Shown here: positions 499 to 17,450 of the stretch, piece after piece | Numbering within the stretch: the stretch's first letter is position 1 | Layout: every line of letters begins with the position of its first letter | Assembly (NCBI GenBank): GCA_947462105.1 | Contig: CANHNJ010000003.1 | Coordinates: forward strand, 62,001-126,000 | Direction of reading: 5' to 3' | Source of the DNA: Alphaproteobacteria bacterium | GTDB taxonomy: Bacteria; Pseudomonadota; Alphaproteobacteria; Micropepsales; Micropepsaceae | Length of the DNA stretch: 64,000 nt | Translations under genes and position numbers: made by a program | Notes under the pieces: model-generated | The model's input: the letters and a program-made list of their open reading frames with translations, nothing else | What the model was told of the DNA's origin: nothing | Database searches by the model: none

Positions 499-1422
499 AT
501 GCGCGTTATTCTTGCCCAGCCACGCGGCTTTTGCGCCGGCGTCGTCCGCGCCATCGATATCGTCGAAAAGGCGCTCGATAAGTACGGCCAGCCCGTCTAT
601 GTGCGCCACGAGATCGTGCACAACAAGCATGTGGTGGAGTCGCTGAAGAACAAGGGGGCCCGCTTCGTCGAGGAACTGGACGAAGTGCCCGAAGGCGCTG
701 TCACCGTCTTCTCCGCCCATGGCGTGCCGCTGTCGGTGGTCAACACCGCCAAGGACCGTGGCCTGCCGGTGCTGGACGCGACCTGCCCGCTGGTTTCCAA
801 GGTGCACAACCAGGGCAAGCGTTATGTCGCCCACGGCCGCACCCTCATCCTCATCGGCCATGCCGGTCATCCCGAGGTCGAAGGCACCATGGGCCAGGTC
901 GGCGCGCCGGTGACGCTGGTCCAGGACGAGGCCGAGGTCGACGCCCTGATCATTCCCACCGACACGCCGGTCGCCTACATCACCCAGACCACGCTTTCGA
1001 TCGATGACACCAAGGGTATCATCGCCAAGTTGAAGGCGCGTTTCACCGACATTGTCGGCCCGGAAACCAGCGACATCTGTTACGCCACCCAGAACCGACA
1101 GACATCGGTGCGCGAACTGGCCATGCTGGCCGACGTGATCCTGGTGGTGGGGGCGGCGAATTCCTCGAACTCCAATCGCCTGCGCGAAATCGGCATCGAG
1201 GAAGGCCTGCCTTCCTACCTGATCAATGACGGCAGCGAGCTCAAGCCCGAATGGGTCAAGGGCAAGAAGGTCGTGGGCCTGACCGCCGGTGCGTCGGCCC
1301 CTGAAGAACTGGTGCGGCACGTGATCGAAGCGCTGGAGCGCATCGAACCCGTCACCGTCGAAACCATGGACGGCAAGAAGGAACATATCGAGTTCCGTCT
1401 GCCTGCCGAACTGAGGGCTTAA
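499..1422 (+). CDS. ispH: 4-hydroxy-3-methylbut-2-enyl diphosphate reductase
   Basis: Last step of the MEP pathway: reductive dehydroxylation of HMBPP to IPP and DMAPP in the cytosol by a [4Fe-4S] enzyme. The 307-residue length is normal. The three cluster cysteines are C12 (in QPRGFCAGV), C96 (DATCPLV) and C194 (ICYATQNRQ); the conserved substrate-contacting histidines H41 and H74, the GHPEVEG loop and the SSNSNRL motif are also present. The ATG follows a GGGAG ribosome-binding site at good spacing. The hpnH start lies two bases after the stop, so the two genes form a transcriptional unit tying precursor supply to hopanoid side-chain addition. Confidence 0.96.
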
Positions 1423-1424
1423 GA

Positions 1425-2591
1425 ATGGCTTCCTTACCGCTGATGCAGGCCGCCAAGATTGGCGCCTATGTGATGAAGAAGCACATTACCGGCCAGACCA
1501 AGTATCCGCTGGTGCTGATGCTGGAACCGCTGTTCCGCTGCAACCTGGCCTGTTCCGGTTGCGGCAAGATCGATTATCCTGATGACATCCTGAACCAGCG
1601 CCTGTCGGTGCAGCAATGCATGGATGCAATCGACGAGTGCGGCGCGCCCGCCGTTTCCATCGCCGGCGGCGAACCCCTGCTCCACCGCGACATGCCCAAG
1701 ATCGTCGAAGGTTATATCGAGCGCGGCAAGTTCGTCATCCTGTGCACCAACGCGCTGCTGCTGGCCAAGAAGATCGACCAGTACAAGCCGCACCCGAACT
1801 TCACCTGGTCGATCCATCTGGACGGCGACAAGGTGATGCACGACAAGTCGGTCTGCCTGGACGGCACTTATGACAAGGCCGTCGCCGCCATCAAGATGAG
1901 CAAGGAGCGGGGCTTCCGCACCCAGATCAACTGCACCCTGTTCGACGGCGCCGACCCCGAGCGCACCGCCGCCTTCTTCGACGAGATGATGAAGATGGGC
2001 GTGGACGGCATCACGGTTTCGCCCGGCTATGCCTATGAGCGCGCGCCCGACCAGGAGCATTTCCTCAATCGCGAGCGCACCAAGAAGATGTTCCGCGAGA
2101 TTCTCTCGCGCGGTCGCGGCGGTAGGAACTGGGACTTCACCAATTCCAGCCTGTTCATGGACTTCCTGGCGGGCAACCAGACCTATGAATGCACGCCCTG
2201 GTCGATGCCGCTCTACACCGTGTTCGGCTGGCAGAAGCCCTGCTACCTCTTGGGCGAAGGCTATGCCAAGACCTTCACCGAGCTGATGGAAGGCACGGAG
2301 TGGGAGAAGTATGGCGTCGGCAAGTACGAGAAGTGCGCCGACTGCATGGTCCATTGCGGTTTTGAAGGTACCGCCGCCAAGGACATGATCAAGAACCCGC
2401 TCAAGGCCCTGCCGATCATGCTGCGCGGCATCAAGACCGAAGGCCCGATGGCGCCGGATATCGACCTCTCCAACCAGCGCCCGGCGGAATACAACTTCTC
2501 CCAGCACGTTGAGAAGAAGATGTCAGAGATCCGCGCCGCCAAGGCCCGGGCCACTGAGGCCACGTCCCAGACGGCCACGGCAGCGGAGTAG
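1425..2591 (+). CDS. hpnH: Adenosyl-hopene transferase HpnH (radical SAM)
   Basis: In characterised hopanoid producers HpnH joins the 5'-deoxyadenosyl group of SAM to diploptene (hopene) giving adenosylhopane, the first C35 hopanoid. The radical-SAM cluster motif CX3CX2C is seen as C39, C43 and C46 (FRCNLACSGCGK), followed by the glycine-rich SAM motif IAGGEPLL. A C-terminal cysteine group (ECTPWS, then KCADCMVHCGF) is typical of SPASM-like extensions. Length 388 residues fits, with an Ala/Thr-rich tail. It lies immediately after ispH. Its last 69 bases overlap, tail to tail, the 3' end of hpnG on the opposite strand. Confidence 0.95.
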   Translation: MASLPLMQAAKIGAYVMKKHITGQTKYPLVLMLEPLFRCNLACSGCGKIDYPDDILNQRLSVQQCMDAIDECGAPAVSIAGGEPLLHRDMPKIVEGYIERGKFVILCTNALLLAKKIDQYKPHPNFTWSIHLDGDKVMHDKSVCLDGTYDKAVAAIKMSKERGFRTQINCTLFDGADPERTAAFFDEMMKMGVDGITVSPGYAYERAPDQEHFLNRERTKKMFREILSRGRGGRNWDFTNSSLFMDFLAGNQTYECTPWSMPLYTVFGWQKPCYLLGEGYAKTFTELMEGTEWEKYGVGKYEKCADCMVHCGFEGTAAKDMIKNPLKALPIMLRGIKTEGPMAPDIDLSNQRPAEYNFSQHVEKKMSEIRAAKARATEATSQTATAAE

Positions 2592-3224
2592 TTCCGCGAA
2601 CGCCTTGCCCGAATGACTGCCGGTGCGGATCAGCGCCGGCAGTTGCAGCGGATTTTTTGCCAGCGCCCACAGCACGCGGCCCACGGAAATGCCGCCGTCC
2701 GGCTGCATCGCCACCAGGGCGGCAGGCGCCAAGGCGTGGGATGCGTCGTCGGAAATCACCCGCAGCACTGCCAGCGGCAGCCCACGCTTCGCGGCGAAGC
2801 GCGCCGCGACCTGGGATTCCATGTCCACCACCAGCGCCCCACCAGAGGCGCGGAACAGAGCGGCCTTTGCGGCAGCACTGGCGATGACGATCTCGCTGCC
2901 GGTGATGGTTCCCTGATGCGCCGTGCCAAGGCGCGCTGCCAGCAGCACCCGCCACTTGCTGTCGCAAGGGAAGATGTCGGGCCCGGCGACAACGCTTTCG
3001 CCGATTACCACGTCGCCGACCTTGAGATGCGGCGACAGCGCCCCGCCAAGCCCGATGGAGATGACGCCGGTGATGTCGTCCTGCGGGACGTCAAGCTTAC
3101 TCGCCAGACCTACGGCATCGCCGCCGCCCGCCACCGCTACGACACCATCAGCACCTATGATCTCGGCTTCACGCGTCAGGCCGCAGACGGCAAGGATCGT
3201 CACTTTACTTTTCTCACAGGCCAT
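2523..3224 (-). CDS. hpnG: Hopanoid-associated phosphorylase/nucleosidase HpnG
   Basis: Purine-nucleoside-phosphorylase fold protein that removes adenine from adenosylhopane to give (phospho)ribosylhopane, the step after HpnH. Seen: the N-terminal strand TILAVCGLTREAEII, the glycine-rich VAGGG loop, ISIGLGGAL, and the VDMESQVAARFA motif with the catalytic Glu typical of MTA/SAH nucleosidase relatives. I use the ATG at 3224 (MACEKSK), which overlaps the shc stop by 11 bases; frame extends further upstream but that part would lie inside shc. The 233-residue product ends in an atypical Gly-rich tail that is antisense to the end of hpnH. It is the last gene of the minus-strand operon. Confidence 0.9.
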   Translation of the reverse strand: MACEKSKVTILAVCGLTREAEIIGADGVVAVAGGGDAVGLASKLDVPQDDITGVISIGLGGALSPHLKVGDVVIGESVVAGPDIFPCDSKWRVLLAARLGTAHQGTITGSEIVIASAAAKAALFRASGGALVVDMESQVAARFAAKRGLPLAVLRVISDDASHALAPAALVAMQPDGGISVGRVLWALAKNPLQLPALIRTGSHSGKAFAELLRCRGRLGRGLSGPGLGGADL

Positions 3225-5139
3225 GCTCAACGCGGCGCGTGTTGCTGGATTTGAGATTGCGATAACGCGCCAGGGCCCAAAGCGGGAAGAAGCGCGGATA
3301 GCCATGATAGTTGAGATAGAAGACGCGCGGGAAGCCGCCGCCGGTGTAATGCGCCTGGGTCCAGAGACCGTCGGCCTGTTGGTGCTCAGTCAGCCATTTC
3401 ACGCCGCGAACCAATGCCGGATGATCCACCTGCCCTGCCGCCATCAGGCCCATCAGCGCCCAGGCGGTCTGTGACGCGGTCGAAGGCGCGGGCTCATATG
3501 CCTTGTAGTCCAGCTTGTAGCTGTTGCAGTCCTCGCCCCAGCCGCCATCCGGGTTCTGGATGGCGAGCAGCCAGGCGGCACCCTTGCGCATCACGTCATC
3601 GTCCGGCGGCACGTCTGCGCCATTCAGCCCTGCCAGCGCCGACCAGGTGCCATAGATATAGTTGACGCCCCAGCGGCCCCACCAGCTTCCATCGTCGCGC
3701 TGGGTCTTGCGCAGATATGCCACGCCCTCATCCAGCCGCGCCCCATGCTGGCCCAGTTGCGCCAGCATGCCGACGCAGCGGCCCGAGACATCCTCGGTCG
3801 GAGGATCGTGCAGCGCGCCATGATCGGCAAAGGGAATGTTGTTGAGGTAATAATAGGAATTGTCGGCGTCGAAGGCACCCCAGCCACCGCCCCGGCTCTG
3901 CAGACCCTGCACCCACGCGTCGCCGCGCGCGATGGCGGCGTCATACCCTGATGCGAGGCCGGCCTTCTGGGCGCGATCCATCGCCATCACCACCACGGCG
4001 GTATCGTCTAGGTCGGGGTAATGGTCGTTGCGATACTGGAAAGCCCAGCCGCCGGGGCGCACATCGGGCCGTTTTTCTGCCCAGTCGCCCTTCACATCCA
4101 GCACCTGCAGCGGCTTCAGCCATTCCAGGCCGAGCGCCACGGCGGCGTCGGCTTCCGGCGTCCTGGCTTCCAGCAGCGCATGCGCCACCAGCGCCGTGTC
4201 CCACACCGGCGAGACGCAGGGCTGGCAATAGGCCTCATCACCCTTCACCACCAGCAGGTTTTCCACCGACTTGCGGGCGATGGCGTAATCGGGATGGTCC
4301 CTGGGATAGCCCAGAAGGTCGTACATCATCACGCTGTTGGCCATAGCGGGATAGATCGCGCCCAGCCCATCCTCGCCATTGAGGCGTTCGGTGGTCCAGG
4401 TGCAGCATTTCTCGATGGCGCGATGGCGTGGGCCTTCCGGCCATTGCACCTTCTTCAGGATCCTGTCGAGCACGGTAAAAAAGGCCGACCAGTACCTGTT
4501 CTGGTGCGGCGCGCGCGGATTGGCGGCGGGAACGCCGGGCACGAACAGTTCCGCCACATGGACGCCGCGCGGGTTGCGCGCCAGCGGCTGTTTCGCGCAC
4601 AGCACCAGCAGCGGCACGATCACGGTGCGAGCCCAGTAGCTCATCTTGGACAGGTGCACCGGGAACCAGCGCGGCAGCAGGATCAGCTCCGGCGGCACTG
4701 TCGGCACGTCGTTCCACGAACATTCGCCATAGAGCGCCAGCAGGATGCGGGTGAAGACATTGGCCTTGATGGCGCCGCCGCAGGCGTGGATGGCCTGCCG
4801 GGCGCGGACCATATGCGGCGCGTTGATGTCGTCGCCGATCATCTTCAGCGCGAAATAGGCTTTCACCGTCGCCGAGATGTCGAAAGCGCCCGCATGATAG
4901 AGCGGCCAGCCACCATGTTCGCCCTGGATACGGCGCAGGTAATTGCCGATCTTGCGCTCCAGCTCCAGGTTGGGCGTTTCGGCCAGGTAATGCACCAGCA
5001 GCACATATTCTGCCGGGATGGTGGCATCGGCCTCCAGCTCATAGACCCAATGCCCGTCCGGCCGCTGTTCGCGCAACAGACCTCCGGTCGCGGCCTTGAT
5101 GGCGGCTTCCAGTTCGGGCGTGTTCACAGGAGCGTTCAT
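3214..5139 (-). CDS. shc: Squalene-hopene cyclase
   Basis: Class II triterpene cyclase (HpnF) that protonates squalene and folds it into hopene/hopanol; a monotopic inner-membrane protein. The 641-residue length is normal. The catalytic acid motif DXDD is present as DLDD at about residues 376-379, very close to its position in Alicyclobacillus SHC. Several QW repeats are visible, for example QRDDGSWWGRW, QNPDGGWGED and QQADGLW. The start MNAPVNTPELEAA at 5139 follows the hpnE stop by seven bases. The gene is flanked by hpnE and hpnG in the same operon. Confidence 0.97.
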   Translation of the reverse strand: MNAPVNTPELEAAIKAATGGLLREQRPDGHWVYELEADATIPAEYVLLVHYLAETPNLELERKIGNYLRRIQGEHGGWPLYHAGAFDISATVKAYFALKMIGDDINAPHMVRARQAIHACGGAIKANVFTRILLALYGECSWNDVPTVPPELILLPRWFPVHLSKMSYWARTVIVPLLVLCAKQPLARNPRGVHVAELFVPGVPAANPRAPHQNRYWSAFFTVLDRILKKVQWPEGPRHRAIEKCCTWTTERLNGEDGLGAIYPAMANSVMMYDLLGYPRDHPDYAIARKSVENLLVVKGDEAYCQPCVSPVWDTALVAHALLEARTPEADAAVALGLEWLKPLQVLDVKGDWAEKRPDVRPGGWAFQYRNDHYPDLDDTAVVVMAMDRAQKAGLASGYDAAIARGDAWVQGLQSRGGGWGAFDADNSYYYLNNIPFADHGALHDPPTEDVSGRCVGMLAQLGQHGARLDEGVAYLRKTQRDDGSWWGRWGVNYIYGTWSALAGLNGADVPPDDDVMRKGAAWLLAIQNPDGGWGEDCNSYKLDYKAYEPAPSTASQTAWALMGLMAAGQVDHPALVRGVKWLTEHQQADGLWTQAHYTGGGFPRVFYLNYHGYPRFFPLWALARYRNLKSSNTRRVEHGL

Positions 5140-9269: not shown

Positions 9270-10258
9270 TTCAGATATCCGTTGCTGCCGAACCAGGCCA
9301 GCGCGTCTTCCAGTCCCCTGGCATAGGGCCTGGCGCCATAGCCCAGCTCGCGCTTCGCCTTCTCGGACGAAAAGAACATGCGATAGCGCGACATGCGCAG
9401 CGCGTCGGCCGTGAGGAACGGCTCCTTGCCGGTTATGCGGGCAACAGCCTCGGCTGCATACGCCAAGGGGAAAAGAGGCCCGCGCGGCAGCTTCACGCGC
9501 GGCGGCTTGCGCCCCACCATGTCGCCGATATCGCCCAGCATCGCCTGCAGCGGCACATCGGTGCCGCCCAGGATGTAGTTCTCGCCGATCTTGCCCTTTT
9601 CCAGCGCCAGGAAATGGCCTTCCGCCACGTCCTCGACATGCACCAGGTTGAGCCCCGTATCGAGGAAGGCGGGCATCTTGCCGTTCGCCATCTCGACGAT
9701 GATGCGGCCGGTGGGCGTGGGCTTGATGTCGCGCGGGCCAATGGGCGTGGACGGAGACACAATCACGCAGGCAAGTCCCTCCTCCGCGATGCGGCGCTCC
9801 ACTTCGCGCTCGGCCAGAAGCTTGGAAAGCTTATATGCGCCGATCACGCTTTGCGGCGTGTGGCGCGAGGTTTCGTCCACCGCTACGCCATTGACCGGCT
9901 TCAGCGCCGCGACCGAGGAGGTATAGACAATGCGCTCGACGCCCGTGGCCTGCGCTGCGCCCATCACGGCACGCGCGCCCTGCAGATTGTTGTTGGCGAT
10001 CTCGTTTGGATCACGGGCCCAGAGCCGGTAATCGGCGGCGACATGGAAGAGATAGCGCACACCGTCCAGGGCGCTTGTCATCGATGCCGCGTCGCGCATG
10101 TCGCCGGTGACCGCTTCGACGTCCAGCCGGGCGACATTGGCGCGATTGGCGGCAGCGCGCATCAAAACCTTGACCTTGAAGCCACGTGCCACCGCAGCGC
10201 GGGCCACTGCGGCGCCGACAAAGCCCGATGCGCCGGTGACCAGCACCGTATCGGTCAT
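9266..10258 (-). CDS. hpnA: Hopanoid-associated sugar epimerase/dehydratase HpnA
   Basis: Extended short-chain dehydrogenase/reductase. The Rossmann motif TGASGFVGAAVA is at residues 8-19 and the catalytic YKLSK (YxxxK) follows GVIGA near the middle; the GRDIKPTPTGR region matches HpnA proteins. Length 330. Role in side-chain sugar processing is assumed from operon conservation rather than proven. Overlaps hpnL and hpnB by four bases each. Confidence 0.92.
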   Translation of the reverse strand: MTDTVLVTGASGFVGAAVARAAVARGFKVKVLMRAAANRANVARLDVEAVTGDMRDAASMTSALDGVRYLFHVAADYRLWARDPNEIANNNLQGARAVMGAAQATGVERIVYTSSVAALKPVNGVAVDETSRHTPQSVIGAYKLSKLLAEREVERRIAEEGLACVIVSPSTPIGPRDIKPTPTGRIIVEMANGKMPAFLDTGLNLVHVEDVAEGHFLALEKGKIGENYILGGTDVPLQAMLGDIGDMVGRKPPRVKLPRGPLFPLAYAAEAVARITGKEPFLTADALRMSRYRMFFSSEKAKRELGYGARPYARGLEDALAWFGSNGYLK

Positions 10259-11223
10259 GGCGCGCTCCGCAGGGCGGTGCGGCCTTCCACGGCTTGCCAG
10301 TAGATCAAGGCAGGCACGCCGAGAACAATCTCGCGGGCCCGTTTCAGCAGCGAGACGGCAATGCCGGCTTCGGCGGGCAGGCCGAACAATTGCGCCAGCG
10401 CGGCATAGCCGCCTTCCTGCACGCCGATGGCGGCAGGCACGAAGACGGCGATGGACCGCAGGGTGCAGAGCAACGCTTCCAGCGCCAGCGCATCAAGGAA
10501 GGAAATCTCGACACCTACCAGGTAAAAGGCGATCCATGTGCCGATGCCACTGCCGACCCAGGCCACCAGATGCCATGTGGCGGAGACCGCCAGTCGGCCC
10601 GGCGCTTCATAGATCTCGTGGATAGCGTCGCGGAAGGAAACACCGTGATCGGCGTTTGGGAAAAAGCGCAGCGCCAGCTTCTCGATGAAGGCGGAGCCGC
10701 GCTTTTGCAAAGCGATCAGGCCGATGATGCCGGGAATGCCCAGCAACAGCACGGCGGCCAGCGATTGCAGCAGCCAGCCCGACTCCACGATGCCGCCCAG
10801 ATGCAGCACCGCGATGGTGACGCCGAATGCCAGGAAGGCGATCTGCGCCATGGCCTCGGTGGTGGCGTCAGCTGCGACGGAAGCCGAGGCATAGGCCCCA
10901 TTCATGCCCTTCAGGATCATCAGCCGCGCGGCCGCGACCATCCCACCCACGGGTGAGAAGGGCGAAATATCGGCGATGGAGTCGCGCACCAGGCGCGCGA
11001 TATAGAAGTGATGCAGGCTGCGGCGATGCTCCGGCGGCAATAGGGCGACCCAAGCCAGCGCCGCCGTGAGCAGGATCAGCGCCGCATAGAGGCAGAGCAG
11101 CGCCAGACCACCCAGCCCCGCCCGCGCCACCGCGCCCAGCACGGCGCCAAAGCCCACCGCCCAGATCACCCAGACGGCGGCGACAAGGCCTGCCAGCAGC
11201 GCGAGGAACACGCCCCACTTCAT
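10255..11223 (-). CDS. hpnL: Hopanoid-associated integral membrane protein HpnL
   Basis: Polytopic membrane protein of the lysylphosphatidylglycerol-synthase transmembrane-domain family (UPF0104-like), about 7-8 hydrophobic segments over 322 residues, starting MKWGVFLALLAGLVAAVWVIW. Conserved inner motifs such as RDSIADISPFSPVGGM and PAAIGVQEGGYAAL are typical of the family. Members near hpn genes are named HpnL; transport or flipping of hopanoids has been suggested but is not shown by sequence. It follows diiron protein 1 by 18 bases. Confidence 0.88.
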   Translation of the reverse strand: MKWGVFLALLAGLVAAVWVIWAVGFGAVLGAVARAGLGGLALLCLYAALILLTAALAWVALLPPEHRRSLHHFYIARLVRDSIADISPFSPVGGMVAAARLMILKGMNGAYASASVAADATTEAMAQIAFLAFGVTIAVLHLGGIVESGWLLQSLAAVLLLGIPGIIGLIALQKRGSAFIEKLALRFFPNADHGVSFRDAIHEIYEAPGRLAVSATWHLVAWVGSGIGTWIAFYLVGVEISFLDALALEALLCTLRSIAVFVPAAIGVQEGGYAALAQLFGLPAEAGIAVSLLKRAREIVLGVPALIYWQAVEGRTALRSAP

Positions 11224-11241: not shown

Positions 11242-12090
11242 TCAGGCCGGCAGCGGCTTGGCGCGGAAGCTCCACAAGCGCAGGGCGCCAAGCGCCGCTT
11301 CCGCCAGCTGCGGCAGGAAGCTAGGCTTCAGAAATTCGGCGTCGAAGGCATCCATGCGGCGGCGGTTTTCCGAATAGCAGTCTTCCAGGAAACGCCGGAA
11401 GGTGAAGCCGTCCAGGAAGACGCTCGCCTGGGTAGCGTTGAATTCCTTGCCATCATTCAGTTCGGCGCCACGTCGTGCGGTACCGACCATGCGGCCCAGG
11501 GCACGCATGTAATAGCGGAAATCGATCAGTGGCAGGACAGCGCGCGCGAGAATGCCCTTCTGCGCCTGCTGATAGGCCATCCAGTTGACGAAGAAGACGA
11601 TGTGGCGCGTCTCCTCGTACATCAGAGTTTCGAAGATGGCGAACATCTCCTTGGGTAGAAACTGGCTCTGCATCGCGATCTTGAAGACACCGAAGCCCAG
11701 GAAGGAATCCATGCACTCACCAAAGCCGAAATCCTTGAACTTGGTTTCGACGTCGCCGTCGATAACTTCCAGCGGCCGTTCAGCGGCGTCGATGCCGTAT
11801 TTCTCGATCATTACCCGGATCAGCTTGGCATGGCGCGCTTCCTCGAAACCCTGCAGCGCGATGGCTTCCTTCATCACCGGATCGGTGACGGTCTCGGTGA
11901 AGGCGGCGACGATGGCCCCGGCGCGGCGCTCGGTGTAGAAGACTTCTTCCCAGAACGGCACCGATTTCAGGCGCGCCAGCGCGGCTTCGTCCAGCACAGG
12001 CCAGGGGAGCGTATCGGGATCATAATCGGTATAGGTCTGCTTGAAGTGCGCACAGAACGCATCGCGATGTTCGAGGGAACCGATTTTCAT
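11242..12090 (-). CDS. Ferritin-like diiron-carboxylate protein 1 in hopanoid operon
   Basis: 282 residues with the four-helix-bundle diiron ligand pattern: E54 (FYTERRAG), E84xxH87 (FEEARHA), E125 (GFGECMDSF) and E160xxH163 (YEETRHIVFFVNW). I cannot match it to a characterised enzyme. Oxidases, hydroxylases, desaturases and N-oxygenases all use this fold. A paralogue lies at 12848-13753 with the same ECxDSF and EExRHIxFFVNW signatures. The ATG at 12090 overlaps the methyltransferase stop (ATGA) and the gene ends 18 bases before hpnL, so it belongs to the hopanoid operon. No signal peptide or membrane helix. Ferritin-type iron storage is unlikely given the length and the single diiron pattern. 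Confidence 0.8.
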   Translation of the reverse strand: MKIGSLEHRDAFCAHFKQTYTDYDPDTLPWPVLDEAALARLKSVPFWEEVFYTERRAGAIVAAFTETVTDPVMKEAIALQGFEEARHAKLIRVMIEKYGIDAAERPLEVIDGDVETKFKDFGFGECMDSFLGFGVFKIAMQSQFLPKEMFAIFETLMYEETRHIVFFVNWMAYQQAQKGILARAVLPLIDFRYYMRALGRMVGTARRGAELNDGKEFNATQASVFLDGFTFRRFLEDCYSENRRRMDAFDAEFLKPSFLPQLAEAALGALRLWSFRAKPLPA

Positions 12091-12851
12091 GACAGGCTCT
12101 TTTCTGCGGGTGCCATCAGCACCGTGGTCTGGAAGAAGGGATGCCAGCTGCGCGAGACCAGCGCCAGGCGCGGCGAACGGCAGAAGGCGCGATCGATGCG
12201 GCGCGACAGGCGTGTGGCCTTGTCCCAGCCGCCGGCGAACAGGTGATTGCTGAGCACGCACAGGCCACCCGGCGCCAGCAGGCCAGCAACCTGTTCGGCC
12301 ACCGCATCCAGCCCCGCATCATCGGTGCGGGGCAGGTAATAGAGCGTGTCCATGATGGTGACGAGATCGAAGCGGCCTTCAATGCCTTCCGGCAAGGCGG
12401 CGATGTCACCCTGCTGGAAGCCCAGATTGGCAGTGCCGCCATGGCGCTTGCGGGCATGTGCGACGGCGGTCTGCGCCACATCCACGCCCAGGACGTAATC
12501 GGAACGCGCCGCCAGCAGCAGCGACAGGGCGCCCAGGCCGCAGCCCAGATCGAGTGCCCGCCCATACCGTCGCCCCGGCGGCAGCAATGACATCACGGTA
12601 TTGTATTTGCGGGCCTGATAGCTGTAGCGCGGATTGAATGATTCCCACGGATCGTCGCACTCGCCATAGATCGCCTCGAAGGCGGCGTTGCGGCTGCTGG
12701 CCGATTCCAGCTGGGCGATGCGCGCGTCGGTCTTGCCGCCCACGATCAGCATCCAAAAATCCTGCGGCCGCAGGGCGTAGCCCTTGGCAAAGTCCCACCG
12801 CCCCTGTGCCGAGGCCGATGCGCGTTCGGGATGCGGCCCCGCTTCCATCAA
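12087..12851 (-). CDS. NodS-like class I SAM methyltransferase in hopanoid operon
   Basis: 254 residues. SAM motif I is ALDLGCGLGALS (about 99-110), the acidic motif after it is VLGVDVAQTA, and motif IV-like IMDTLYYL follows. Upstream of motif I is CDDPWESFNPRYSYQARKY (about 65-83), which resembles the DDPW...E.. K region I recall from NodS, the N-methyltransferase of Nod-factor synthesis. The C-terminal strand region GLLAPGGLCVLSNHLFAGGW also fits that family. HpnI adds a GlcNAc and HpnK deacetylates it nearby, so a free amino sugar would be available as an N-methylation target; that is inference. Four-base overlaps with both diiron genes. Confidence 0.78.
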   Translation of the reverse strand: MMEAGPHPERASASAQGRWDFAKGYALRPQDFWMLIVGGKTDARIAQLESASSRNAAFEAIYGECDDPWESFNPRYSYQARKYNTVMSLLPPGRRYGRALDLGCGLGALSLLLAARSDYVLGVDVAQTAVAHARKRHGGTANLGFQQGDIAALPEGIEGRFDLVTIMDTLYYLPRTDDAGLDAVAEQVAGLLAPGGLCVLSNHLFAGGWDKATRLSRRIDRAFCRSPRLALVSRSWHPFFQTTVLMAPAEKSLS

Positions 12852-13753
12852 GCCGCCTTCTTCTTGGGACCGATGAACTTGAGGGCGATCCGCGCCATGA
12901 AGGGCACGAAGCGCGGCCGCTTGAGCCGGACATCATAGGGCGCCAGGCGTCGGTCATTCTCTTCGAGGCAGACCGCAACAAGCCCGCCGACATCGAGATC
13001 GGAGCCCAGAGCCTCGGCGCCATTGACGGTGAAGTTGGCGTCCTGTTCGCCATGTCCGACATCCTTGGCGATACCGATGCGCTCATAAATCAGGAATATC
13101 CAGACGGCGAGAACCTTCAATTCAAAATAGGGGCGGCGCCAGAACGGCATGTTGCGGCGATGCCAGGCGATCCAGTTGACGAAAAACAGGATGTGGCGGG
13201 CCTCCTCGTTCACCACCGGATCGAAGGTCTGCACCAGCTCGGGCGGGAAATAACCCGTGTCCTTCGCCGCCTTGAACAGGCCGAAGGCGAAGAAGCTGTC
13301 GATGCATTCGCTGTAGCCGGTGACCATGAAGGCCCATTCCGGGTCTTTCGGACGCGCCGGCACCGGCTCTGGCGCCAGCGTGACGCCATACGCCTCGACC
13401 AGGTTGGCCAGCACATGACGATGGCGGCGCTCTTCAAAACCGTTCAGCTCGATGGCCTTGCGCAGCAGCGGATCGGGCACGCCCTCGGCATAGGTGCAGA
13501 CATTCATGCCCGCATTGTTCTCGGTCTGCACCGCGATGTCCCAGATCGGCAGCGACGTGATGCGCTTTTCCGCTTCCGGTTCCAGCTTGGGCCAATCCAG
13601 TACTGCGGGGCGATAGGGGTCAAATGTGTCGAGCAGCGTCTTGCAGAACAGGCGCTTGTGTTCGTCCGAGCCATATTTGATCGGGCCGCCGCCCGGCCAG
13701 GTGCCGGTGTCGCGGGAAAGATCGGGCGGGGTGGCGAAAACGTGCGTGCTCAT
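12848..13753 (-). CDS. Ferritin-like diiron-carboxylate protein 2 in hopanoid operon
   Basis: 301 residues; paralogue of the protein at 11242-12090. Diiron ligands: E78 (VQTENNAG), E108xxH111 (FEERRHR), E149 (YSECIDSF) and E184xxH187 (NEEARHILFFVNW). It has a longer Pro/Gly-rich N-terminus (about 25 extra residues) and a basic C-terminal tail ending GPKKKAA. The ATG at 13753 follows the hpnK stop by eight bases; its stop overlaps the methyltransferase start. The two copies differ in the second helix (EEARH versus EERRH), so they may form a heterodimer or act on successive substrates. Function unknown. Confidence 0.8.
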   Translation of the reverse strand: MSTHVFATPPDLSRDTGTWPGGGPIKYGSDEHKRLFCKTLLDTFDPYRPAVLDWPKLEPEAEKRITSLPIWDIAVQTENNAGMNVCTYAEGVPDPLLRKAIELNGFEERRHRHVLANLVEAYGVTLAPEPVPARPKDPEWAFMVTGYSECIDSFFAFGLFKAAKDTGYFPPELVQTFDPVVNEEARHILFFVNWIAWHRRNMPFWRRPYFELKVLAVWIFLIYERIGIAKDVGHGEQDANFTVNGAEALGSDLDVGGLVAVCLEENDRRLAPYDVRLKRPRFVPFMARIALKFIGPKKKAA

Positions 13754-13761
13754 GCTGGGCC

Positions 13762-14604
13762 TTAATGTATCGGAAAGTCGCAAAAGCCGCCAAGACAGAT
13801 ATCCCCGCCTTGCGTTGCCGCAATGACAGCCGGATCCAGCAGGGCGGCGCGTTCCTCCGCATAGCGGTAGCCGGGGGCCGAGCCCGGATAGGCCCCGGTA
13901 GCGGGATGCAGGTAGATTTCCGACAGGCCTTCCGGGAGATTTTCGAGAATCCCCTTCAGGCGCGCGCCCGTCATCGCACCGGACCAGGCTAGGCCGAACA
14001 CGGCATCGGGGGAAACAATGCCCGCCCTGGCGAAACGGCGGCGCAATCCCTGCGCGAAGGGCCGTGTGAGGGCTGCGACAGAAGAGCCCTTGTAGGGCTC
14101 GATCCTGGCCAGCGTCACGGCGGGCTCCAGCGGCACCCGCGCCGCCTTCAGTCCGAAATCGCGGCCAATGGACAGCATCAATGCCGCGATGGTGGGGTGC
14201 AGGTGGAAATGCTTGTGGGCGTTGACATGGTCCAGCGCCAGCCCGGTGGCGCGGAAGGCGGCAAACTGGGCCGCAATCTCTTCCGCCAGCTGTCGTTTAA
14301 CATGGGGCAGGAAGAACATCGCCGCGCCCGCCCGCGCCATGTCGGTGCGGAAATTGCCGTGCACGTCGACAAGATCGGGCACCTGCGAAACCGGTAGCAC
14401 CGGCGCGCCTTCCACCAGTACCAGATGCAGCCCGACGCGCAGAGACGGGGCAGCTTTCGCCCGCGCCACCGCGTCGGCAGCCGCCGGCGCCGCTACCATC
14501 AGGCTGGTGGCGGTGAGGATGCCCTTGGCATGCGCCTCCAGCACCGCGTCGTTGACTTCGCGCGCGGCGCCGAAGTCATCGGCCGTGACGACAAGGCGCT
14601 TCAA
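13762..14604 (-). CDS. hpnK: Hopanoid amino-sugar deacetylase HpnK (YdjC/ChbG-like)
   Basis: In the Burkholderia pathway HpnK deacetylates GlcNAc-bacteriohopanetetrol to the glucosamine form. N-terminal VVTADDFGAAREVNDAV carries the metal-binding Asp-Asp of the YdjC family, and VGLHLVL and DHVNAHKHFHLHP supply the histidines. Length 280. Only one base separates its ATG from the hpnJ stop. The neighbours HpnI and HpnJ make the assignment firm. Confidence 0.92.
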   Translation of the reverse strand: MKRLVVTADDFGAAREVNDAVLEAHAKGILTATSLMVAAPAAADAVARAKAAPSLRVGLHLVLVEGAPVLPVSQVPDLVDVHGNFRTDMARAGAAMFFLPHVKRQLAEEIAAQFAAFRATGLALDHVNAHKHFHLHPTIAALMLSIGRDFGLKAARVPLEPAVTLARIEPYKGSSVAALTRPFAQGLRRRFARAGIVSPDAVFGLAWSGAMTGARLKGILENLPEGLSEIYLHPATGAYPGSAPGYRYAEERAALLDPAVIAATQGGDICLGGFCDFPIH

Positions 14605-14605
14605 A

Positions 14606-16042
14606 TCACGCGGCGTTCTGGTTCTGGCGATCGCGCAGGAACTGGAAGAACTCTACGCCTTCACGCAGGCGACGCTTCATCATGCCTTCCTGCGTCACCA
14701 TTTCCTTGACAATCGAGCCGATCTTGCTCGGGCGGAAATAGAACTGGCGATAGAAGGTCTCCAGCGAGTCGAAGATTTCCTTGTGGCTCAAATGCGGATA
14801 GTGGAGCGGCGCGATCTGGATACCGTCATCGGTCACCAGTTCGGCATTGGCGGCATCGAGCCAGCCATTCTGCACCGCCTGATTGTAGAGGAAGGTGCCC
14901 GGATAGGGCGCGGCCAGCGAGATCTGCACGGTGTGCGGGTTGATGCGCTTGGCGAATTCGCGGGTCTCGCGCATCGTCTCCAGCGTCTCGCCCGGCAGTC
15001 CCAGGATGAAGGTGCCGTGAATCTGGATGCCCAGCGCGTGGCAGTCCTTGGTGAACTGCTCGGCAACCTCGATGCGCATGCCCTTCTTGATGTTGTGCAG
15101 GATCTGCTGGTTGCCGGATTCATACCCGACCAGCAGCAGGCGCAGGCCACCTTCCTTGAGCTTCTTCAGCGAGGCGTAGGGCACATTCGCCTTGGCGTTG
15201 CAGGCCCAGGAGATGCCCAGCTTGCCCAGCTCGGCGGCAATGGCTTCGGCGCGCGGCAGGTCGTCGGTGAAGGTGTCGTCGTCGAAGAAGAACTCCTTGG
15301 TCTGCGGGAAGGCCTTCATCGCCCACTTGATCTCCTCGACCACATGGCTGACCGAACGCGTGCGATAATTGTGGCCGCCCACGGTCTGGGGCCAGAGGCA
15401 GAAGGTGCAGCGCGACTTGCAGCCACGGCCGGTATAGATCGAGATATAGGGGTGCTTGAGATAGCCGATGAAGTACTTCTCCATCTCCAGATCGCGCTTG
15501 TAGATCGGCGTCACCCAGGGCAGCGAGTCCATGTTCTCGATGATGGGGCGGTCAGCATTGTGCGTGATGACGCCCTGCTTGTTGCGGTACGAGATGCCCT
15601 TGATGTCGGCCCAGGGCTGATCGTCGGCAACATCCTTGATGGTGAAATCGAACTCGTTGCGGGCGACGAAATCGACAGCCGGCGCCTTGATCATCGAGCC
15701 TTCGGCATCGACGGCGACCTTGGCGCCGATCAGGCCGGCCTTCAGGCTGGGATTGGCAGCCTTCAGCGCCTCGATCACCTTCACGTCGGAGGCGAAGGAC
15801 GGGACCGAGGTGTGCGCCACCACCAGGTCGAAATCCTTGGCCTGGGCCACGACCTCGGCAAGTTGGGTGTTGTGCGGCGGCGCGTCGATCAGCTTGGAAT
15901 TCTCCACCAGCGCGGCAGGCTGGGCCAGCCAGGTGGGATACCAGAAGCTCTTGATCTCGCGCTTGGCCTGGTAGCGCGAGCCGGCGCCGCCATCAAAGCC
16001 ATCGAACGAGGGAGCCTGCAGAAAGAGCGTGCGCATAGACAT
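14606..16042 (-). CDS. hpnJ: Hopanoid radical SAM protein HpnJ
   Basis: Radical SAM enzyme that converts glucosaminyl-bacteriohopanetetrol to the cyclitol ether (ring contraction). An N-terminal B12-binding-like region (about 1-190) is followed by the cluster motif CX3CX2C in GRGCKSRCTFCLWPQ. The core strands FFFDDDTF and ILGLPGETLETM are as in this family. Length 478. The start MSMRTLF at 16042 has a GAAGGA ribosome-binding site. It sits between hpnI (12-base gap) and hpnK (1-base gap). Confidence 0.93.
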   Translation of the reverse strand: MSMRTLFLQAPSFDGFDGGAGSRYQAKREIKSFWYPTWLAQPAALVENSKLIDAPPHNTQLAEVVAQAKDFDLVVAHTSVPSFASDVKVIEALKAANPSLKAGLIGAKVAVDAEGSMIKAPAVDFVARNEFDFTIKDVADDQPWADIKGISYRNKQGVITHNADRPIIENMDSLPWVTPIYKRDLEMEKYFIGYLKHPYISIYTGRGCKSRCTFCLWPQTVGGHNYRTRSVSHVVEEIKWAMKAFPQTKEFFFDDDTFTDDLPRAEAIAAELGKLGISWACNAKANVPYASLKKLKEGGLRLLLVGYESGNQQILHNIKKGMRIEVAEQFTKDCHALGIQIHGTFILGLPGETLETMRETREFAKRINPHTVQISLAAPYPGTFLYNQAVQNGWLDAANAELVTDDGIQIAPLHYPHLSHKEIFDSLETFYRQFYFRPSKIGSIVKEMVTQEGMMKRRLREGVEFFQFLRDRQNQNAA

Positions 16043-16054
16043 TCAGATAGTCCT

Positions 16055-17212
16055 TCAGTTCACGGATTGGGTCATGGCGCCTGATGGCGCAATATCGAAA
16101 CGGGCGCCGCGCCAATGCACCGTCTCACCGAACAGTGCTTGTACGAAAACGGCGAAGCTCAGCAGGTCGCGCAGCGGCAACAGCCAGAAGGGCCCGGCAT
16201 AGGTGCCGAAGAGGCCGTCGATGCGGTGCTTGAGCAGCAGCCGCGCGCTCAAGGTGGCCGCCATCGCGGCAAGGCTGACGGGCGCAAAGCCCAGCGCCAG
16301 CAACGACAGCACCGCGAACGCAAAACCAAACGTGACGATGCTGCCCAGATTTCCCGCCGGGTCGATGCGGTGGATGGTATGGCGCCAGCGCCGCTCGTGG
16401 CGGAACAGGTCCATGAAGGTCGGCTCGACGGCGGTGTGCGCCACGCCCAGCGCCGGCATCGCGAGCGTATGGCCCATGGCGCGCACGGCGCGGCCGATCT
16501 CGTAATCATCGGCCAGGCAGTCGGCAAAGGCCGCAAAGCCACCGACATCGTCCAGCGTCTTGCGGCGCAGGGCGATGGTGGAGCCGAAACAGGGAGACGC
16601 CAGGCCCAGCGCGGTACCGACCACGACATTGGGCAGGAAGTCGTAAGAGGTGCCCATCGCCGCCAGCTTCGACCACAGGCTGTTGTCGCCCTTCACCACT
16701 TCGCCAGTGTAGAGACAGGTGACGATGCCAACGCCGGGGCGCTGCAGCGCCGCCGTGACCTGCGCCAGCCAGTGCGGCTGTACCGCGATGTCGCTGTCGG
16801 CCAGCACCAGCGTGTCGTGCTTGGCCACCGCCATGATGCTGATGAGGTTGGAGACCTTGGCGTTGGCGCCCTGGCTCACCACCTCGACCGCCATCGCGGT
16901 ATCGAGCTGCGGATACTTGGCCTGCAACGCCTGCACCACCGCCACGGCGGGATCAGCGTCGTCATGGACGCCGAACACGATCTGCACCGCGCCGGGATAA
17001 TTCTGCAGGCAGAAGCTTTCCAGGTTTTCGAACAGGCCGGGCTCGCAGCGATAGAGCGGCTTGAGGATCGTCACCGGCAGATGCACGGCGGGGACATTCG
17101 CTTCCGCAGCCATGAAACGGCGCACGCAGAGGACGGCGAAGACGGCATAGGCCGCGCCCAGCAACGCCAAGCCTGCCAGCGCCCAGCCGATCATGGTGAA
17201 AAGAAACGCCAT
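16055..17212 (-). CDS. hpnI: Hopanoid glycosyltransferase HpnI (GlcNAc transferase)
   Basis: GT2/GT21 (ceramide-glucosyltransferase-like) membrane enzyme that adds N-acetylglucosamine to bacteriohopanetetrol. N-terminal membrane segment FLFTMIGWALAGLALLGAAY, then VTILKPLYRCEPGL, VLADSDIAV (DXD-like), and the acceptor-side D...RHERRWRHTIHR motif ((Q/R)XXRW) before C-terminal membrane segments. The start at 17212 (MAFLFTM) follows AGAAG-like purines; an upstream GTG would add seven residues. First gene of the operon. Confidence 0.92.
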   Translation of the reverse strand: MAFLFTMIGWALAGLALLGAAYAVFAVLCVRRFMAAEANVPAVHLPVTILKPLYRCEPGLFENLESFCLQNYPGAVQIVFGVHDDADPAVAVVQALQAKYPQLDTAMAVEVVSQGANAKVSNLISIMAVAKHDTLVLADSDIAVQPHWLAQVTAALQRPGVGIVTCLYTGEVVKGDNSLWSKLAAMGTSYDFLPNVVVGTALGLASPCFGSTIALRRKTLDDVGGFAAFADCLADDYEIGRAVRAMGHTLAMPALGVAHTAVEPTFMDLFRHERRWRHTIHRIDPAGNLGSIVTFGFAFAVLSLLALGFAPVSLAAMAATLSARLLLKHRIDGLFGTYAGPFWLLPLRDLLSFAVFVQALFGETVHWRGARFDIAPSGAMTQSVN

Positions 17213-17450
17213 CACTTCTTTCCGGGCCCCCACCCGCTATTCGTCACCTTATTAGTTATTCGCACCCGCAGCGCCAAGCGTTGATTTGGACACAGTTTGC
17301 GACAATCAATTACTTAAATATCTGATTCTATTAGATTTATTGAAACTCCAAGGTTCCGTTCGAGGCAAGTACTAGCCCCAGGGTCGAAAAAAGGCGGGAT
17401 TTCGCAGATGCGAAGCCGTAATGAAGACGCGCCCTAACGTCCTTGGACCA
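17213..17450. promoter_or_regulatory. Divergent promoter region of the hopanoid operon and dusB
   Basis: The only long AT-rich gap around the 14-gene operon: roughly 17280-17350 contains CAATCAATTACTTAAATATC and further A/T runs, in contrast to the GC-rich surroundings. The operon promoter must lie here since every downstream junction overlaps or is below 20 bases. I cannot name a specific regulator site. Confidence 0.5.

Follow-up and report, generated by a model that had tools for sequence, protein, structure and literature searches.

Hopanoids are the bacterial counterpart of cholesterol, and few molecular fossils are used more than hopanes. The genes behind bacteriohopanepentols and bacteriohopanehexols are unknown according to a 2025 survey, which covered 54 alphaproteobacterial strains and saw no evident candidates near hpn clusters (PMC12583986); our own literature search found no published gene for hydroxylation of the hopanoid side chain. 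Our analysis concerns two ferritin-like genes, here called DiA and DiB, which flank a methyltransferase gene (MT) within the hopanoid operon of an alphaproteobacterium of the Micropepsaceae (contig CANHNJ010000003.1, positions 62,001 to 126,000; this whole stretch of 64,000 nucleotides is referred to as the window). DiA and DiB very probably represent a diiron enzyme family dedicated to hopanoids. The enzymes that place additional hydroxyls on the hopanoid side chain have long been missing, and DiA and DiB are good candidates for this role. The two genes and their predicted iron ligands lie at the following positions.

12848..13753, minus strand: DiA, predicted ferritin-like diiron protein of 301 amino acids (open reading frame, conserved family, AlphaFold2 model, fold search); proposed hopanoid side-chain (C-31) hydroxylase
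13421..13432, minus strand: first ExxRH ligand motif of DiA, E108-H111 (E78 codon at 13520-13522); invariant in 82 representatives save one H111Q
13193..13204, minus strand: second ExxRH ligand motif of DiA, E184-H187 (E149 codon at 13307-13309); invariant in 82 representatives
11242..12090, minus strand: DiB, second predicted ferritin-like diiron protein, 282 amino acids (33% identity to DiA, deep clade, fusions); proposed C-30 hydroxylase or heterodimer partner
11830..11841, minus strand: first ExxRH ligand motif of DiB, E84-H87 (E54 codon at 11929-11931), from the alignment
11602..11613, minus strand: second ExxRH ligand motif of DiB, E160-H163, from the alignment

Ligands and fold of the DiA/DiB family

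An earlier note on this DNA had described DiA and DiB as ferritin-like paralogues with complete diiron ligand sets, and on both counts it holds. The two proteins align without a gap over 267 residues at 33% identity (E=4e-56), which makes them genuine paralogues. The ligand set E, ExxH, E, ExxH (E78, E108xxH111, E149 and E184xxH187 in DiA; the DiB numbers are lower by 24) is invariant across 82 representatives of the family, with one H111Q as the sole exception, and residues E107, R110, C150, R186, I188 and N193 are equally invariant. An AlphaFold2 model of DiA shows a helical bundle (predicted local distance difference test 84.8; predicted template-modelling score, pTM, 0.86) in which each of the four long core helices, 70-90, 95-121, 138-166 and 178-201, bears one ligand group: E78, E108/H111, E149 and E184/H187, respectively.

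A fold search with the DiA model gave the R2-like ligand-binding oxidase (R2lox) and ribonucleotide reductase R2 as the best solved matches (E=1.8e-3, template-modelling (TM) score ~0.52). The model of a natural DiA-DiB fusion, described below, additionally retrieved stearoyl-acyl carrier protein (ACP) desaturase and aldehyde-deformylating oxygenase (E 0.05-0.07), whose substrates are long and aliphatic. At the level of sequence profiles the likenesses are fainter: a search of the Protein Data Bank (PDB) gave a weak match to a MiaE-like tRNA hydroxylase (E=0.0089), and one family member matched the AcsF-type oxidative cyclase profile NF010172 weakly (E=2.4e-4). Sequence searches of Pfam, NCBIfam and the PDB yielded no name for DiA or DiB, and no Pfam or NCBIfam cut-off was reached. 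The best score against Pfam Ferritin_2, Rubrerythrin and AurF was 18.4 bits where the gathering cut-off is 24.7, with weak E-values for the family members; against the NCBIfam AcsF model DiB scored 15.3 bits, the cut-off being 391, and the DiA of the window gave no match; the NCBIfam R2lox cut-off was missed as well, with one family member at E=0.25. Together, these results point to the ferritin-like diiron oxidase superfamily; metal content and use of O2 we infer.

Association with hopanoid producers

A scan of named genomes returned 582 relatives, and the neighbourhood counts cover the best 80 of these, which come from Alphaproteobacteria (Sphingomonas, Novosphingobium, Caulobacter), Gammaproteobacteria (Dyella, Nevskia) and Burkholderiales (Cupriavidus, Paraburkholderia, Trinickia). 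In 74 of these 80, spread over Alpha-, Beta- and Gammaproteobacteria, hpn genes lie no more than 2.5 kb away, including cases such as Sphingomonas in which hpnA-E and shc are divergent. The earlier note had named homologues found mostly outside hpn operons, and with another conserved role, as the case that would speak against it; the nearest relatives show the opposite arrangement, and distant solo copies sit in Shc-positive genomes. A non-hopanoid role of such distant or solo homologues was sought through the presence of Shc, and none was found.

The linkage extends from gene neighbourhoods to whole genomes. A strong family match is present in 27 of 385 alphaproteobacterial genomes, and Shc occurs in 25 of these 27 carriers vs 78 of 358 non-carriers (Fisher p=1e-13, or 5e-11 without the window's genus; all Fisher p-values given here ignore the relatedness of the genomes). 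Within Sphingomonas (n=101), where hopanoid genes are patchy, Shc accompanies 11 of 12 carriers vs 6 of 89 non-carriers (p=9e-10), and it was present in all 15 of the further carriers, including those in which DiA is distant from any hpn gene. Five Burkholderiales loci (L122, L123, L125, L137 and L139) hold a single DiA gene apart from hpn genes; in L122 and L139 it is near genes that by inspection resemble an acyl-CoA carboxylase operon, and L122, L123 and L125 belong to Shc-positive genomes.

These counts also bear on the suggestion that the family is ferritin-like without being catalytic, serving iron storage or the oxidative protection of the radical S-adenosylmethionine (SAM) enzymes HpnH and HpnJ. 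The ferritin fold and the invariant metal ligands would suit such a role. Nearly all Shc-positive alphaproteobacteria would need that protection, though, and the family is present in about a quarter of them (25 of 103); moreover, the solved structures closest in fold are those of oxidases, not of ferritins. We regard this explanation as very unlikely.

The earlier note had further tied the genes to the HpnI/K/J branch, and comparison across genomes does not support a specific tie of this kind. The corresponding explanation is that DiA and DiB tailor that branch, by oxidizing the glucosamine or cyclitol ether head group or by assisting HpnJ. In its favor, DiA immediately follows hpnK or hpnJ and precedes hpnL in most of the nearest relatives, including Sphingomonas species whose other hpn genes are divergent, and HpnJ is commoner in carriers (13 of 27 vs 16 of 358 non-carriers). 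Against it, 12 of the 25 Shc-positive carriers lack HpnJ, and the association of DiA with HpnJ among Shc-positive genomes falls from p=0.004 with the window's genus to p=0.085 without it. A single genome (G160) makes the same point: it combines a shc-hpnEDCBA-DiA cluster with an RND (resistance-nodulation-division) transporter gene, HpnN-like by inspection, and with DiB, and it has no HpnJ. A strict tie of DiA to HpnJ is ruled out by the 12 carriers and by G160, and because HpnJ is so often lacking, the hopanoid itself is a likelier substrate than the head of the cyclitol ether; tailoring of the HpnI/K/J branch is accordingly an unlikely function for the family.

Two further observations concern hpnJ and hpnK. 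Across loci L048-L067 the identity of HpnJ to the window copy is bimodal (~90% or ~62%) with gene order unchanged and DiA steady at 80-92%, and two hpnJ lineages seem, from these identities, to have been exchanged in place among close relatives. At L025, L030/L031, L035, L068, L070, L073, L074 and L085, DiA follows hpnJ or lies in its cluster with no hpnK nearby; in the accepted pathway HpnK acts before HpnJ.

The DiA-DiB unit and the inserted methyltransferase

A member of the DiA/DiB family is present in 56 of 96 genomes of the window's family, and at the loci inspected DiA stands between hpnK (or hpnJ) and hpnL or hpnA, mostly without DiB. In one clade the DiA and DiB genes overlap directly. 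Five metagenome-assembled genomes (MAGs) titled Rhodospirillales or Alphaproteobacteria carry a fused DiA-DiB polypeptide of 580 residues ahead of hpnL, and a sixth fusion genome (G425; L156:8270-12331, minus strand) holds DiA and DiB within the C-terminal half of one open frame of 1353 residues, the first 740 of which have no Pfam match at 0.001. A tree of the 82 representatives places DiB in a deep clade (Shimodaira-Hasegawa-like approximate likelihood ratio test, SH-aLRT, 100) that includes the DiB halves of the fusions; a recent tandem duplication is thereby ruled out as the origin of the pair. A DiA-type gene accompanies DiB in all of the inspected genomes that have DiB, save G058, in which the contig ends just before DiB.

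Because DiB occurs only where DiA does, and because the two are fused in some genomes, a joint or sequential action of DiA and DiB is supported by their sequences and arrangement, in agreement with the suggestion in the earlier note that they are partners or successive enzymes. In its strictest form this would be an obligate heterodimer with one product, in which one subunit binds the substrate and the other activates O2. The fusions in six genomes, and the fact that DiB lacks DiA only at one contig end, are what such a dimer would predict; yet DiA alone is the commonest form, both proteins have complete ligand sets, and the fusion model shows no confident domain packing or interface (pTM 0.51). 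We therefore place the obligate heterodimer on the improbable side, while keeping it in view.

The window adds a methyltransferase to this arrangement. The minus-strand gene order is hpnI-hpnJ-hpnK-DiA-MT-DiB-hpnL-hpnA-hpnB-hpnC-hpnD-hpnE-shc, and the window copies of HpnI, J, K, L, A and B pass their curated NCBIfam cut-offs. The genes around DiA and DiB are as follows.

16055..17233, minus strand: hpnI, glycosyltransferase (TIGR03472, 415 bits vs cut-off 310)
14606..16042, minus strand: hpnJ, B12 radical SAM cyclitol ether synthase (TIGR03471, 805 bits vs cut-off 577.6)
13762..14604, minus strand: hpnK, hopanoid glucosamine deacetylase (TIGR03473, 366 bits vs cut-off 232.6)
12087..12848, minus strand: MT, SAM-dependent methyltransferase, class I, NodS-like by Pfam (ATG start 12848; alternative TTG start 12851)
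10255..11223, minus strand: hpnL, membrane protein (TIGR03476, 260 bits vs cut-off 195.65)

The gap from hpnK to the start of DiA is 8 bases. Four-base overlaps had been noted on both sides of the methyltransferase gene: that between MT and DiB stands (ATGA), while DiA and MT share four bases only with the TTG start at 12851, and a single base (TGATG) with the ATG start at 12848. Probable ispH, hpnH and hpnG genes, identified by inspection at window positions 499-3305, adjoin shc, and a complete C35 hopanoid pathway is therefore likely in the window.

The earlier note had taken DiA, MT and DiB as one module, of which the two diiron genes remain and the methyltransferase drops out: relatives have DiA alone, DiA and DiB overlapping, or the two fused. 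The methyltransferase was found in three of the 96 genomes of the window's family, namely that of the window, G077 and G024, and this count rules it out as integral to the conserved unit. G077 (L179, with the near-identical contig L047), a close relative, has the order DiA-MT-hpnL without DiB, and in G024 a 44% identical relative of MT adjoins hpnL without DiA. Since MT is rare, DiA is usually alone and G077 lacks DiB, the DiA-MT-DiB triad is specific to the window genome and DiA is its core. By the distribution of its sequence, the methyltransferase is a recent, rare, lineage-specific insertion. DiA is thus a widespread hpn gene so far without a name, DiB is its older, optional partner, and MT is a local addition.

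As to what the methyltransferase might do, its Pfam matches are Methyltransf_25 (1.2e-15) and NodS (1.4e-13). It scores 51.5 bits against Pfam NodS, well above the cut-off of 24, but generic methyltransferase models score it as well or better, and it reaches 48 bits against the cut-off of 300 of the NCBIfam NodS equivalog. NodS N-methylates a deacetylated glucosamine and HpnK makes one, so that by analogy it is a reasonable guess that MT may N-methylate the glucosamine or cyclitol head. A methylated cyclitol ether, the position of its methyl unknown, has been described from Tistlia.

Proposed side-chain hydroxylation and comparison with known systems

Of the oxygen-dependent hopanoid tailoring envisaged in the earlier note, a hopanoid-devoted diiron family of the oxygen-using type is upheld, with hydroxylation as the likeliest reaction; desaturation and N-oxidation, which it had also offered, fit the lipid data less well. 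These data come largely from Table 3 of the 2025 survey (PMC12583986), in which pentol plus hexol amounts to 0-1% in Hyphomicrobiales and 15-90% in six of eight hopanoid-producing Sphingomonadales, is common in acetic acid bacteria, and reaches 77% in Enhydrobacter. Its pentol producers further include Sphingomonas mali, S. haloaromaticamans, Stakelama, Sphingobium estronivorans and Nitrospirillum, whereas Novosphingobium rosa, S. changbaiensis and Rhodospirillum rubrum are free of pentol. In the same survey hexols are limited to Rhodospirillales, and Sphingomonadales produce pentols without hexols. Each of the twelve Sphingomonas carriers has a single family member, in line with pentols without hexols, and fused forms are known from MAGs titled Rhodospirillales or Alphaproteobacteria, the former being the only order with hexols. 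Sphingomonas formosensis CC-Nfb-2, which contains 23% pentol (the column gives pentol plus hexol) and 1% unsaturated bacteriohopanepolyols (BHPs) (PMC12583986), has DiA after hpnK in its hpn operon (L079) and no DiB. Burkholderia cenocepacia has a DiA at 60% identity, and a bacteriohopanepentol cyclitol ether is annotated in strain K56-2 (PMC8560942).

The same data bear on the idea that DiA and DiB supply the missing ring desaturation that yields delta-6 and delta-11 unsaturated BHPs, in the manner of soluble acyl-ACP desaturases, whose fold they share. The desaturase genes are likewise unknown (PMC12583986), the fold search with the fusion model retrieved stearoyl-ACP desaturase, and B. cenocepacia also produces an unsaturated cyclitol ether (PMC8560942). 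Sphingomonadales, however, contain pentols at up to 90% and almost no unsaturated BHPs (0-1% in Table 3), for which reason ring desaturation fits poorly; the same imbalance is seen in S. formosensis, whose hpn operon contains DiA, and the survey itself proposes a different gene, a sterol desaturase-type protein (PMC12583986). A ring-desaturase function is, in our estimate, distinctly unlikely.

We propose instead that DiA and DiB are side-chain hydroxylases, which is the best-supported reading although it falls a little short of probable, and in which we infer both the hydroxylation and the carbon positions. With O2 and a carboxylate-bridged Fe2 site, DiA would place a hydroxyl on the C-31 methylene in the side chain of the bacteriohopanepolyol and so produce bacteriohopanepentols; DiB would add the next hydroxyl at C-30 to give hexols, or would act as the catalytic partner of DiA. 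In the operon of the window the products would pass to HpnI, HpnK and HpnJ and end as cyclitol ethers of pentol or hexol, which the inserted MT might methylate. That these are the first identified aerobic hopanoid side-chain hydroxylases, ancient paralogues dividing the labor between pentols (DiA, C-31) and hexols (DiB, C-30) and fused in some lineages, is possible, if doubtful.

Several points weigh against side-chain hydroxylation by this family or limit the case for it. Rhizomicrobium palustre, a member of the Micropepsaceae, has just 1% pentol (PMC12583986). Gene and lipid agree in only one exact strain, S. formosensis, and in one species, B. cenocepacia, where the gene was seen in one strain and the lipid in another. 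A pentol cyclitol ether is also present in Rhodopila strain LVNP, for which growth was mainly anoxic (PMC8590665); which culture was used for liquid chromatography-mass spectrometry is not stated, and if it was anoxic, this would speak against an O2-dependent route in that organism. Shc went undetected in two of the 27 carriers (G221 and G399, both fragmented genomes), and the neighbourhood of the DiA and DiB genes encodes no dedicated reductase or ferredoxin.

A family that is tied to hopanoid producers, lies inside hpn clusters in three classes of Proteobacteria and bears the hallmarks of an oxygenase makes a long-standing gap testable. If the proposal is true, pentol and hexol hopanoid biomarkers would be predictable from genomes and could possibly serve as indicators of oxygen, and their link to O2 would become a concrete question for the geological record.

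The closest described systems each resemble the family in some respects and differ from it in others. With R2lox and ribonucleotide reductase R2, the best fold matches of the DiA model, it has in common a four-helix bundle with two carboxylate-rich metal motifs, but identity to DiA is ~15% at the TM score given above, and the gene neighbourhood differs. AcsF, the oxidative Mg-protoporphyrin monomethyl ester cyclase, is a diiron oxygenase with a related motif stretch, and a parallel may be drawn with the B12-dependent radical SAM enzyme HpnJ, which is likewise related to BchE; the aligned stretch is short, however, and no bacteriochlorophyll genes were seen beside DiA or DiB. The MiaE-like tRNA hydroxylase is a ferritin-like diiron hydroxylase whose profile matches across the four-ligand core, although the score is borderline, DiA has ~70 extra C-terminal residues, and DiA is genomically tied to hopanoids. 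In being an optional hopanoid modifier found in only some producers, the family resembles the hopanoid methylases HpnP and HpnR and the aminotransferase HpnO (PMC12583986); these have other folds and other chemistry, and are often encoded outside the hpn cluster, whereas DiA usually lies inside it.

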